Assembly: GCA_005778115.1 (NCBI GenBank)
Contig: SXKJ01000354.1
Span: 1 to 58,502 of the forward strand
Length of the DNA: 58,502 bases
Source: Planctomyces sp.
Lineage (GTDB): Bacteria > Planctomycetota > Planctomycetia > Planctomycetales > Planctomycetaceae
Direction of reading: 5' to 3'
The notes below the pieces were generated by a model. It was given only the letters and a program-made list of their open reading frames with translations, ran no database searches and was not told the origin of the DNA. Positions 32,750 to 35,609 of the stretch are shown in pieces. A program made the translations under genes and the position numbers. Positions within the stretch are counted from its first letter, which is position 1. Each line of letters opens with the position of its first letter.

Positions 32750-33982
32750 ATGCGAAGTGAAACCGAATCGTCGTTCTCCGATGAGCCATTCAAGATCCCG
32801 GTCGCTGACCGAGTGAAGCGGCTCCCACCGTACTTGTTCGGCAAGATCAACAAGCTCAAGCACAAGAAGCGGCAAGACGGCATCGACGTCATTGACCTCG
32901 GCATGGGCAACCCCACCGATCCGCCCGAGCAATTCGTCATCGACAAGATGATCGAGTCGCTCGCTGACTCGCGTAACCATCGCTACTCCGTCAGCAACGG
33001 CGTGGAAAATTTGCGTCGCGAAGTCGCCAAGCGCTACGATCGCAAATACGGCGTGCAACTCAATCCGCAGTCGGAAGTCATCGCCTGCATCGGCTCCAAA
33101 GAGGGCTTCAGCCACATGTGCCTGGCCCTGATGGGACCGGGCGACACCGCCATCGTGCCGGCTCCGACGTTCCCTATTCACTCGTATGCAGTGATGCTCG
33201 CCTCCGGCAATGTCATCGCACTCGACGTCCGCAATCCGGAAGAATTTCTCTCGAACATCGCTTACACCTGCGAGCACCTCTTCCCGAAGCCGAAGCTGGT
33301 GATCGTCAACTTCCCGCACAACCCGTCGGGCACCTGCATCGAGCAAGATTTCTATGTGGACCTCGTCGCGTTGGCGAAGAAGTATCAGTTCCTCGTCATC
33401 AGCGACTTCGCCTACGCCGACATCTGTTACGACGGCTATCAAGCCCCCAGCTTTCTGGCGACTCCCGGAGCCATCGACATCGGCGTCGAACTAACGACGA
33501 TGAGCAAAGGCTACAGCATGGCCGGATGGCGCATCGGTTTCTGCTGCGGCAACTCCGAAATGGTTCGCGCTCTGGGCACGATCAAAGGCTACTACGACTA
33601 CGGCATCTTCCAAGCGATCCAGATCTCCGCGATCGTCGCGATGCGTCACGGCGACGAGGCGATCGAACGACTCTGTGTTGAATATCAACACCGTCGCGAC
33701 TCGCTGGTGGATGGGCTCAATCGCCAAGGCTGGGACATCGAAGCTCCGAAAGCCGGCATGTTCGTGTGGGCCAAGATTCCCGATCAGTGGTCCGAGATGG
33801 GTTCGATCCCATTCGCAATGAAACTGCTGAACGAAGCCGGAGTCGCCGTCAGCCCCGGCCTTGGCTTCGGTCCCGAAGGAGAGGGTTTTCTGCGTTTGGC
33901 GGTCGTCGAAAACGCACAACGGCTTCGACAAGCCGTCCGCGAAATCGGCCGTTGTCTCAAGCCCGAATCGGTCACTGTTTGA
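32750..33982 (+). CDS. alaC: class I PLP aminotransferase, AlaC-like
   Basis: The protein is 410 residues. [14 protein letters not shown] and [14 protein letters not shown] at the N-terminus, the NFPHNPSGT motif and TTMSK253[11 protein letters not shown] with the PLP-binding lysine place it in the class I/II aminotransferases, closest in pattern to glutamate-pyruvate transaminase AlaC and LL-diaminopimelate aminotransferase-like enzymes. The likely reaction is transfer of an amino group from glutamate or alanine to a 2-oxoacid. The specific substrate cannot be fixed from sequence by eye. It has no operon partner, and tRNA-Asn follows 90 bp downstream. Confidence 0.88.
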
Positions 33983-34072
33983 TGCTCATCAATGAACCGG
34001 AGAAAGGCTTGCATCACCTGACATCATCCGGTACACACCCCGCCTCATTCACGGACATCGCGTCCGTGATTT

Positions 34073-34145
34073 TCCTCGATAGCTCAATCGGTAGAGCGAG
34101 CGGCTGTTAACCGCTAGGTTCTTGGTTCGAGTCCAAGTCGAGGAG
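34073..34145 (+). tRNA. tRNA-Asn (GTT)
   Basis: A 73-nt cloverleaf folds fully: acceptor TCCTCGA/TCGAGGA, D-arm GCTC/GAGC, anticodon stem AGCGG/CCGCT with loop CTGTTAA (anticodon GTT), T-arm CTTGG-TTCGAGT-CCAAG, discriminator G. CCA is not encoded. A rearranged copy lies at 34468-34549. Confidence 0.96.
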
Positions 34146-34151
34146 CTTTTC

Positions 34152-34186
34152 CCAACGGGACCAGCCATCAGGCTCGGTCCCGTTGG
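34152..34186 (+). terminator. hairpin after tRNA-Asn
   Basis: A perfect 11-bp stem CCAACGGGACC/GGTCCCGTTGG is extended by AGCC/GGCT with a one-base bulge and an ATCA loop. It follows the tRNA by six bases but lacks a strong T tract. Confidence 0.65.
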
Positions 34187-34211
34187 CGTTTCCACTGCGG
34201 GGGGAATCTGC

Positions 34212-34514
34212 GTGGCGACCACATCGTCAGCCGGTCTATTCTGGGTCTATGTGCTCGTCAGCGAGTCGGCCGGCCGTCGTTACATCGGCTAAACCGACGA
34301 CCTCAATCGACGTCTCCACGAGCACAACACACCAGAGCACAACCTGAGAAAAATCACCTCCTCCCGTCATACCGGGCAGTGGAGGCTCATTTACTCGGAA
34401 GAACATGCCACCAGGGCTGCCGCCATGCAGCGAGAGCTTTGGCTCAAATCTGGAGTTGGTCGCGCATGGCTCGATCGCTCAATCGGTAGAGCGAGTCCGC
34501 CGAAAACGGATTAA
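34212..34514 (+). pseudogene. GIY-YIG nuclease (UPF0213-like) with one in-frame stop
   Basis: Reading from GTG 34212 gives FWVYVLVSESAGRRYIG, then TAA (34290-34292), then TDDLNRRLHEHN and, further on, WRLIYSEEHATRAAAMQRE and LWLKSGVGRAWLD. This is a complete small GIY-YIG domain of the UPF0213/YhbQ type: YVL and YIG form the paired beta-strands, R is the catalytic-region arginine and E of YSEE or MQRE falls in the expected acidic region. The stop replaces one residue in YIG-x-TDDL, where Gln (CAA) or Lys (AAA) is usual, so one base change explains it. The frame runs into a rearranged tRNA-Asn copy and ends at a TAA formed by tRNA sequence. Such nucleases cut DNA; a tRNA-linked mobile role is my inference. 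Confidence 0.85.
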
Positions 34515-34549
34515 CCGCTAGGTTCTTGGTTCGAGTCCAAGTCGGGGAG
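34468..34549 (+). other. rearranged tRNA-Asn copy (tRNA pseudogene)
   Basis: The 25-nt segment 34471-34495 matches 34076-34100 of tRNA-Asn with one mismatch, and 34511-34551 matches 34107-34147 with one mismatch. Between them, six bases of the anticodon arm are replaced by 15 bases forming TCCG/CGGA. The acceptor stem no longer pairs at its end, so it is unlikely to be a working tRNA. It overlaps the 3' end of the nuclease reading frame. Confidence 0.85.
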
Positions 34550-34551
34550 CT

Positions 34552-34569
34552 GTGACCGGTTTCGGTCAC
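34552..34569. terminator. small hairpin after tRNA-like copy
   Basis: GTGACCG/CGGTCAC, a 7-bp perfect stem with a four-base loop directly after the tRNA-like copy. Confidence 0.4.
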
Positions 34570-34580
34570 CGTTCACACCA

Positions 34581-34620
34581 AAAACCCTCGGTCGCAAGTT
34601 GTTATGCGGCCGAGGGTTTT
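34581..34620. terminator. intrinsic terminator
   Basis: A 16-bp stem AAAACCCTCGG.CGCA and its complement with an eight-base loop ends in GGGTTTT. It is A-rich on one side and T-rich on the other, so it could stop transcription from both directions. About 200 bp of sequence with no visible gene follows up to deoC. Confidence 0.85.
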
Positions 34621-34826
34621 CGCTTGGTCATCTTCCGATGAGCTACTTCGCGGTGGTATCACAAGCCTCGCGACCGTCCCAGCCGATTGGTTCGCCTGCC
34701 GCTTCTCAAGTGCCACAACTGTTGTATTCACATTGTGATGCGTTGATTTGATCTGGTTTGAGTCCGTCTATTTTGCGATTTTCGTCGCCATTCAAATGAG
34801 ACTATTACGACACCTCAGCACCTTGC

Positions 34827-35609
34827 TTAATATCCACCGGAACCGATTGAGGCTGAGGAGGACGACGCCACGGAGGACTGTTGCCGATGGCGGTAGGTGT
34901 CGAGCATCGCGGCCGTCGCGGTTGCTCCGCAGCGAGTGGCTCCGAGGTCGCGGACTTTGATGAGGCCGTCCAGATCGCGGACGCCTCCGGCAGCTTTCAC
35001 TTGTACTCGCGGCGAGACACTCGCGCGCATCAATGCGAGATCGTGCTCAGTCGTGCCTTTGTAGTTGTACGAACCGTCCGGCTGTTTCACAAAGCCGTAG
35101 CCCGACGAGGTTTTCACCCAATCGGCTCCGGCTTGTTCGCAGATGTGGCACAGACGGCGTTTGAAGTCGTCGCTACTCAAGCCCGCGCCGCCCATCGTCA
35201 GGTAGTCGTTTTCGAAGATCACTTTCACTTTCGCTCCGTGTCGATGTACCTCGTCGCAGACGGCCTGAATGTCGCGTTGCACGTAGTCCCAATCGCCACT
35301 GAGGGCCTTGCCGATGTTGATCACCATGTCGATCTCGGCTGCCCCGTCGCGACAGGCCAGTTCGGTTTCGTAACGCTTCGATTCCGTGCAACTGTTGCCA
35401 TGCGGGAATCCAATCACCGCGCCGACTAGAACACCGCTGCCGCGCAGCAATTCGACCGCTCGTGCGACGAAATACGGTTTGATGCACACCGACGCGACCT
35501 TGTATTCGGCAGCGAGACGACAACCGGCCTCCAGTTCTGCATCGGTCATCGTCGGATGCAGCAGCGAGTGATCGATCATCTTGGCGAGTTCTTCGTAGGT
35601 GTATTGCAT
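34827..35609 (-). CDS. deoC: deoxyribose-phosphate aldolase
   Basis: The protein is 260 residues. The aldolase signature is intact: Schiff-base Lys in WVK166-TSSGYGF, the proton-relay Lys in VK205-AAGGVR, and Asp in EIDMVINIGK. It splits 2-deoxyribose 5-phosphate into glyceraldehyde 3-phosphate and acetaldehyde. GAAGG lies eight bases before the ATG at 35609. The C-terminus is a Ser-rich tail (QQSSVASSSSASIGSGGY), which is unusual. It lies about 100 bp after the ROK kinase on the same strand, separated by an inverted repeat, and may be read with the sugar operon. Confidence 0.96.
   Translation of the reverse strand: MQYTYEELAKMIDHSLLHPTMTDAELEAGCRLAAEYKVASVCIKPYFVARAVELLRGSGVLVGAVIGFPHGNSCTESKRYETELACRDGAAEIDMVINIGKALSGDWDYVQRDIQAVCDEVHRHGAKVKVIFENDYLTMGGAGLSSDDFKRRLCHICEQAGADWVKTSSGYGFVKQPDGSYNYKGTTEHDLALMRASVSPRVQVKAAGGVRDLDGLIKVRDLGATRCGATATAAMLDTYRHRQQSSVASSSSASIGSGGY

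Follow-up and report, generated by a model that had tools for sequence, protein, structure and literature searches.

The window analysed here comprises 58,502 nucleotides of Planctomyces sp. DNA (contig SXKJ01000354.1, one contig of a draft genome) and carries, at 34073-34146 on the forward strand, an intact tRNA-Asn (gtt) gene that is recognized by ARAGORN and by Rfam (RF00005, 69.9 bits) and that would be the functional copy kept at the insertion described below. Downstream of this gene, and on the same strand, are a terminator-like hairpin (CCAACGGGACC...GGTCCCGTTGG, 34152-34186) and a reading frame for a GIY-YIG nuclease, which starts with GTG at 34212 and runs to a TAA at 34512-34514. The frame matches PF01541 with 47-48 bits (48.1 bits against a curated cut-off of 22.6), which places it in the GIY-YIG superfamily. 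Its 3' end lies within a second copy of the tRNA-Asn gene that spans 34470-34550, again on the forward strand, and that is made up of two blocks with one mismatch each: the 5' part, of 26 nt (34470-34495), doubles as the code for the C-terminus of the nuclease (..DRSIGRAS), and the 3' half, of 40-41 nt (34511-34550; TTAACCGC...GGGGAGC), repeats positions 34107-34146. Moreover, the terminal TAA of the nuclease frame is the TAA of the tRNA anticodon loop. The intact tRNA-Asn, the near-identical second copy in two blocks and the stop codon derived from tRNA sequence had all been noticed in a preliminary description of this DNA, and all three are borne out here.

That description had called the second tRNA copy rearranged. 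The copy is indeed altered, but not by plain rearrangement; rather, CGGCTG (6-7 nt) on the 5' side of the anticodon arm has been swapped for a palindrome of 15-16 nt, which reads TCCGCCGAAAACGGAT in the window copy and TCCGCCNNNGGCGGAT in relatives. The palindrome of the window (TCCGCCGAAAACGGA, 34496-34510, forward strand) stands where the 5' side of the anticodon arm should be and is decayed; its intact form, TCCGCCNNNGGCGGA, is found at the equivalent site of seven other loci (L006, L007, L171, L172, L174, L175 and L218). The second copy folds like a cloverleaf, with a hairpin in the anticodon position and without an anticodon loop. (ARAGORN calls it a tRNA-Phe; we rejected this call as an artefact of the hairpin, the sequence being a copy of tRNA-Asn.) Similarly, a small GIY-YIG gene had been reported downstream of the tRNA, and the domain is present, but the frame is broken by a TAA at 34290-34292, directly after the YIG motif (YIG*TDDL), and because of this in-frame TAA the window nuclease is a pseudogene. 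Relatives have a Gln codon at this position, among them congener G437, whose element is 95.4% identical and has CAA there; recoding of the TAA as a sense codon was rejected in view of that CAA. Neither the internal stop codon nor the palindrome nor the mirrored arrangement described below had been noticed in the preliminary description. Note that a search of 33900-34900 against Rfam gave no intron family at E<=1 and that the tRNA is uninterrupted, so that the locus does not qualify as a group I intron.

We compared the locus with its counterparts in related genomes. Within the family and genus of the window, only 3 of 37 tRNA-Asn loci are accompanied by a second tRNA piece (at least 12 nt, within 600 bp), those of G422, G437 and G443; G422 and G437 carry a GIY-YIG gene, and G443 has a palindrome-bearing copy. 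An aminotransferase gene is kept in 11 congeners and adjoins tRNA-Asn in most of them. The close congener G441 provides the empty tRNA-Asn site that the preliminary description had proposed to look for; G442 and G444 have the element's terminator together with a gene that is decayed or lost; G437 has the element with a truncated gene and a copy of the palindrome upstream; and G443 has the palindrome-bearing tRNA copy, its nuclease gene being absent. The terminator-like hairpin, common to the window, G437, G442 and G444 and absent from the empty site of G441, is therefore counted as part of the element. (G432 was dropped as the empty-site comparison, and G441 taken instead, since the contigs of G432 break inside the tRNA and may hide an island.)

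Between the window and G437 the element is 95.4% identical and the neighbouring host gene only 85.9% (Fisher p 9e-6); between the window and G442 or G444 the host gene is 92-93% identical and the alignable part of the element only 72-86%. The T stem of the tRNA reads CTTGG/CCAAG in the window and in G437 and CTAGG/CCTAG in G441, G442 and G444, and the tRNA-Asn of the window is identical to that of G437. Thus, it is the element and not the host gene that agrees with the tRNA variant, as would be expected if the element moves and brings the 3' half of the tRNA with it. Because the T-stem variant is also present in other congeners, it supports this idea without deciding it. On these comparisons, lateral movement of the element within the window's genus is well supported, and transfer of the tRNA 3' half along with it supported, which is in line with the earlier suggestion that the element carries part of the tRNA: in element and T-stem variant alike, the window matches a distant congener and not its nearest relatives. 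With the site empty in G441 and filled in the window and in G437, the locus combines presence and absence of the gene at one site with lateral spread, as do free-standing homing elements. The right-hand junction of the insertion in the window cannot be fixed, because the downstream flank lies away from any tRNA in G443 and G444. For the same reason, strong matches in 2 of 25 relatives, obtained when we asked whether the native terminator follows the second copy, do not decide that point.

Two further congeners, G440 (L259/L269) and G438 (L266/L274), have what appear from the flanking sequence to be tyrosine-integrase-like islands in the same tRNA-Asn, with a 43-46 bp fragment of the tRNA 3' end at the far end of the island. 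Because these islands also occupy tRNA-Asn, the gene is an insertion hot spot, and the window locus could in principle be the remnant of an ordinary island whose att site was the 3' half of tRNA-Asn, the GIY-YIG gene being leftover cargo; the length of the islands' repeats is near that of the 40 bp repeat in the window. Like the element described here, such islands enter tRNA genes and themselves supply the 3' half that makes the gene whole again. Between the two tRNA copies of the window, however, there is no integrase gene, only the GIY-YIG frame and the hairpin, so that the locus does not qualify as a tyrosine-integrase island. The second copy, moreover, has a 5' part and a palindrome, both of which are missing from the att fragments of the islands, and the element differs from islands in its size of about 400 bp, in a break that falls in the D, anticodon or T arm, in the duplication of either half of the tRNA and in the palindrome at the break. 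Since the mirror form described below duplicates the 5' and not the 3' half, and a unit of about 300-400 bp stands alone in many phyla, we consider an island remnant, already disfavoured, to be very improbable.

The wider occurrence of this layout was examined in two steps. In the first, the window protein (its TAA read as Gln) served as query against 392 genomes of the phylum; 89 of them matched, and 130 loci were analysed. The second was a scan of one genome per species, which added 80 loci for a total of 210. The loci of the wider scan come from Planctomycetota, Bacteroidota, Ignavibacteriota, Thermodesulfobacteriota, Verrucomicrobiota, Acidobacteriota, Nitrospirota, Calditrichota, Chlorobiota, Myxococcota, Aminicenantes and many CPR groups, and a tRNA lay within 500 bp at 59 of the 80, in a sample biased towards the query's tRNA-linked clade by the use of a narrow alignment (16 diverse proteins having proved too divergent). 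Over the whole set, a tRNA is found within 500 bp of 101 of the 210 GIY-YIG loci, whereas comparable positions in other parts of these loci have one in 4.9% of cases (p 3e-73); a tRNA at this distance lies on the same strand as the gene in 100 loci and on the opposite strand in 3. Direct repeats of at least 14 nt surround the gene at 58.5% of the tRNA-linked loci of the phylum and at 0.6% of mismatched flank pairs.

An exact duplication of one end of the tRNA on the far side of the gene was found at 59 loci, in two mirror forms. Type A (25 loci) has the order of the window, namely intact tRNA, nuclease, 5' fragment, palindrome and 3' half; type B (34 loci) has 5' half, palindrome, nuclease and intact tRNA. 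The same plan recurs in three remote lineages, at tRNA-Asn in L006 and L007 and at tRNA-Pro in L008, and altogether 14 tRNA isotypes are occupied (Asn, Pro, Asp, Leu, Val, Ser, Lys, Ala, Arg, His, Gly, Met, Gln and Phe). The break falls in the D arm at 24 of the 59 duplicated loci, in or beside the anticodon arm at 16 and in the T arm at 19, and a GC-rich palindrome (stem of at least 6) touches it at 36 of the 59, compared with 6% at random points (p 3e-29). (By eye, several of the other loci have palindromes with longer loops.) The view put forward in the preliminary description, that a minimal nuclease element uses the tRNA as its target, is thus supported by the many tRNAs and phyla concerned, with the enzyme as the putative agent that cuts the tRNA gene.

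The fusion of gene and tRNA is likewise not peculiar to the window. In type B the stop codon of the nuclease lies inside the intact tRNA at 21 of 34 loci, 10 of which end at tRNA position 10, that is, with the widely conserved TAG of positions 8-10; a further 9 loci stop at most 6 bp from the tRNA. Type A elements at tRNA-Asn take their stop codon, TAA, from the anticodon loop, and the junction is GGCGGATTAA|CCGCTAGG in the planctomycete clade and GGCTGTTAA followed by the palindrome in Aminicenantes, Smithella, Terriglobia and L010. A precise boundary of this kind, shared among relatives, had been named beforehand as what would speak for the element, and GIY-YIG frames that end in one or other of these two ways within tRNA-Asn occur in about a dozen lineages. 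In a tree of the enzyme (69 sequences, 82 columns, weak support), tRNA isotypes are clustered, with 34 changes against 43.8 in shuffled data and none of 200 shuffles as low, and one group of 20 holds 19 tRNA-Asn elements from five phyla. That enzyme lineages tend to keep one tRNA, above all tRNA-Asn, across phyla is well supported by the sequences.

These recurrences bear on a passive history, according to which a tRNA gene was duplicated in tandem, the extra copy acquired palindromes by a separate process, and a GIY-YIG gene unable to move was carried along or kept. Such a history could account for the tandem, nuclease-free, palindrome-bearing tRNA copies of G443 and for the arrays of them found in G422 and L006. 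However, tRNA-Asn loci that have no gene seldom have a second tRNA piece (1 of about 33), the element has moved laterally together with a tRNA variant, and mirror forms, breaks at the level of the arms and stops taken from the tRNA recur in many phyla. We regard this explanation, too, as already disfavoured and as improbable. (At three loci, L172, L176 and L177, the nuclease has no intact tRNA within 500 bp; L172 and L176 retain a palindrome-bearing remnant of tRNA-Asn, and all three are possibly orphan copies.)

The nuclease itself consists of a GIY-YIG domain of 80-90 residues and no further domain for DNA binding, and the catalytic Tyr, Tyr-x-Gly, Arg and Glu are invariant among 16 relatives. 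Its nearest solved structures are UPF0213 proteins, 1ywl (EF2693; E 2.6e-5) and 1zg2 (BH0048; E 0.0047), and a Foldseek search with a single-sequence model of L172 (pLDDT 70) ranked 1zg2 first (probability 1.00, E 2.6e-3) and gave a weak match to the catalytic domain of I-TevI. By similarity of sequence and fold, the enzyme can thus be assigned to UPF0213 and the small GIY-YIG proteins, with the fold judged from that model; we know of no UPF0213 protein that is mobile. Among 50,697 phage records no match to the enzyme was found at 1e-5, and by sequence it falls outside the SegB family; PHROG gave weak hits only, confined to half of the GIY-YIG domain, and viral contigs gave distant hits only, apart from a single copy, located where a predicted provirus ends. 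This GIY-YIG gene is identical to the one at L007 and lies at the end of a 37.7 kb contig predicted to be viral (L301, IMGVR_UViG_2713897301_000001); a provirus may abut the element there.

A second GIY-YIG subgroup (..YLKSGSGxAFAxRHF; L031, L066, L069, L072, L088, L110, L112 and L129) is found on the strand of an Ala, Pro or Gln tRNA, 100-400 bp downstream of it, and no tRNA duplication was detected at these 8 loci.

The preliminary description had held that GIY-YIG genes with no link to tRNAs, or tRNA copies with no nuclease at unrelated sites, would refute a tRNA-targeting element, and both are found in part: 109 of the 210 loci are not near a tRNA, many of them being inside other palindromes, and congener G443 has a tRNA copy without the nuclease, which would fit a decayed or non-autonomous copy. 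Genes away from tRNAs lie between inverted repeats of at least 12 nt in 26.5% of cases, compared with 0.2%. Three insertions between inverted repeats are in 23S rRNA as identified by Rfam (L028 and L048, both of G127, and L070 of G372; the arms of L028 are TCCGTCACTTGATTTA), and at four loci the GIY-YIG domain lies in frame within a long host ORF, hsdM-like in L017, L024 and L092 and helicase-like in L019 (names given by eye), with arms CCTGCCTGC.../...GCAGGCAGG. Insertions of GIY-YIG genes near stem-loops have been described in the rRNA genes of CPR bacteria, as non-intron insertions that the authors place outside spread by homing (PMC11270868); the kin of our enzyme inside planctomycete 23S rRNA resemble them, whereas tRNA genes were outside the scope of that study.

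The palindrome TCCGCCN3-5GGCGGA was counted in 12 related genomes and occurs 178 times in G311, 53 times in G443, 47 times in G287 and 39 times in G441, once in G048 and not at all in G024, and the search for the enzyme gave no match in G048 or G024; these genomes are too few to prove a link between palindrome and nuclease. Together with the placement of palindromes in D, anticodon and T arms alike and with the insertions outside tRNAs, this dispersal in gene-bearing genomes would suit a system that mobilizes palindromes, in which an SLX1-like, structure-specific nuclease acts on hairpins or cruciforms and palindromes and gene spread by way of hairpin loops. The arms of tRNAs would then be merely the commonest hairpins and the tRNA duplication a by-product of repair, and the nuclease would be to its palindromes what RAYT is to REPs. 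SLX1 cuts branched DNA, and the nearest solved relatives of our enzyme are UPF0213 proteins; SLX1 itself is a very weak match (E 0.27-0.47), far below significance, and the enzyme differs from it in having neither an SLX4 partner nor an extra domain. REP/RAYT systems and the palindromic elements of Rickettsia are small dispersed palindromes, some of them inside genes, and REP/RAYT is tied to a nuclease; RAYT, however, is a Y1 (HUH) and not a GIY-YIG enzyme, and REP/RAYT is not known to involve any rebuilding of tRNAs. On its own, mobilization of palindromes leaves unexplained the rebuilding of the tRNA, the stop codon taken from it and the fidelity to tRNA-Asn across phyla, and G127, in which the gene is present, has only 5 of the palindromes. 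We therefore think this explanation unlikely; were the enzyme to prove to mobilize palindromes, it would define a new kind of element. The palindrome may be mobile alongside the nuclease, may have been left behind by repair or may serve for protection.

Taken together, our best explanation, which we hold to be probable with a good measure of doubt, is that we have here the dead copy of a minimal, free-standing element of the homing type, about 400 bp in size, that targets tRNA genes, rebuilds them and works in the manner of phage SegB. The enzyme would cut a tRNA gene within or next to its D, anticodon or T arm. Repair from a donor locus would then copy in the nuclease gene, a palindrome-interrupted tRNA copy and a tRNA half that leaves one intact tRNA; the duplication is present in the loci themselves, transfer of the tRNA half is supported by the congeners, and the route by repair we infer. 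The nuclease would presumably be read from the tRNA promoter, and its stop codon, as its sequence has it, is borrowed from the tRNA. In the lineage of the window, the element would have arrived laterally in tRNA-Asn and its nuclease would have died later by nonsense mutation. The duplication, the palindrome, the orientation and the fusion of gene and tRNA are direct observations; cutting of tRNA genes by the enzyme and copying of the element in the course of repair are proposed steps.

SegB of T-even phages, a free-standing GIY-YIG homing endonuclease, breaks DNA within tRNA genes (PMC13096335, citing Brok-Volchanskaya 2008), and according to the same source its cutting leads to tandem tRNA-segB repeats through homologous recombination, the 5' end of the tRNA is homologous to the 3' end of the nuclease gene, and the gene co-localizes with phage tRNAs without isotype preference. 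SegB is the strongest precedent for the mechanism proposed, the two having in common a GIY-YIG enzyme encoded beside tRNA genes. They differ in that SegB belongs to phage tRNA arrays and the present elements to bacterial chromosomes, in that for SegB we found neither a palindrome nor a rebuilt tRNA half described, and in that SegB, as portrayed there, shows no isotype preference, whereas lineages here keep to one tRNA and the enzyme has no match in the phage collection. According to the same paper, the donor allele is a poor substrate for free-standing GIY-YIG enzymes (PMC13096335). Classical homing immunity is not explained by the homing-type element, because the intact tRNA of the donor should remain a target: it persists there with the same sequence as in gene-free congeners such as G445, and the copy that is altered is the one with the palindrome. 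Also to be counted against homing are the palindrome copy without nuclease in G443, the roughly one-half of related genes that are not near a tRNA and the weakly resolved tree. Palindromes have no known role in homing.

A broader possibility, which we put forward tentatively and consider doubtful, is that of a class found throughout bacteria, in which a single-domain, hairpin-recognizing GIY-YIG nuclease would spread itself and non-autonomous palindromes through hairpin loops (those of tRNA arms, rRNA stem-loops, intergenic palindromes and in-frame sites in protein genes), tRNA genes being rebuilt at each insertion. If true, this would explain the hitherto puzzling GIY-YIG insertions in CPR rRNA as well as many dispersed palindromes of uncultured bacteria.

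In the open-access literature we found no account of bacterial chromosomes with GIY-YIG elements that rebuild tRNAs and carry palindromes, which is not proof of absence; the architecture is apparently undescribed, and we file it among free-standing homing elements. As the bacterial-chromosome counterpart of phage SegB, the homing-type element would rank among the smallest self-sufficient mobile elements, with one enzyme of about 90 residues invading essential tRNA genes while the host survives, and would account for GIY-YIG proteins whose C-termini are translated from tRNA. It would also be a source of natural enzymes apparently tuned to one tRNA and would tie a nuclease to dispersed palindromes of obscure origin. 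In addition, its tRNA-like pseudogenes, which ARAGORN calls tRNA-Phe, -Cys, -Arg or -Thr here, corrupt tRNA annotation.

Other palindromes were seen around genes that lie outside tRNAs. Long inverted repeats such as TGTCATTCCCG... and TGAGCCTGTCGAA, which we take to be widespread palindromes of metagenome genomes, flank the gene at eight loci (L052, L074, L100, L103, L115, L121, L124 and L131), and the arms ACCCcGTTAGA.../...TCTAACgGGGT are common to six (L012, L018, L032, L036, L047 and L059). Finally, in Pseudozobellia thermophila DSM 19858, a cultured type strain, two near-identical tandem copies of the nuclease, each with a palindrome, precede tRNA-Arg (L200, about 2150-2800).
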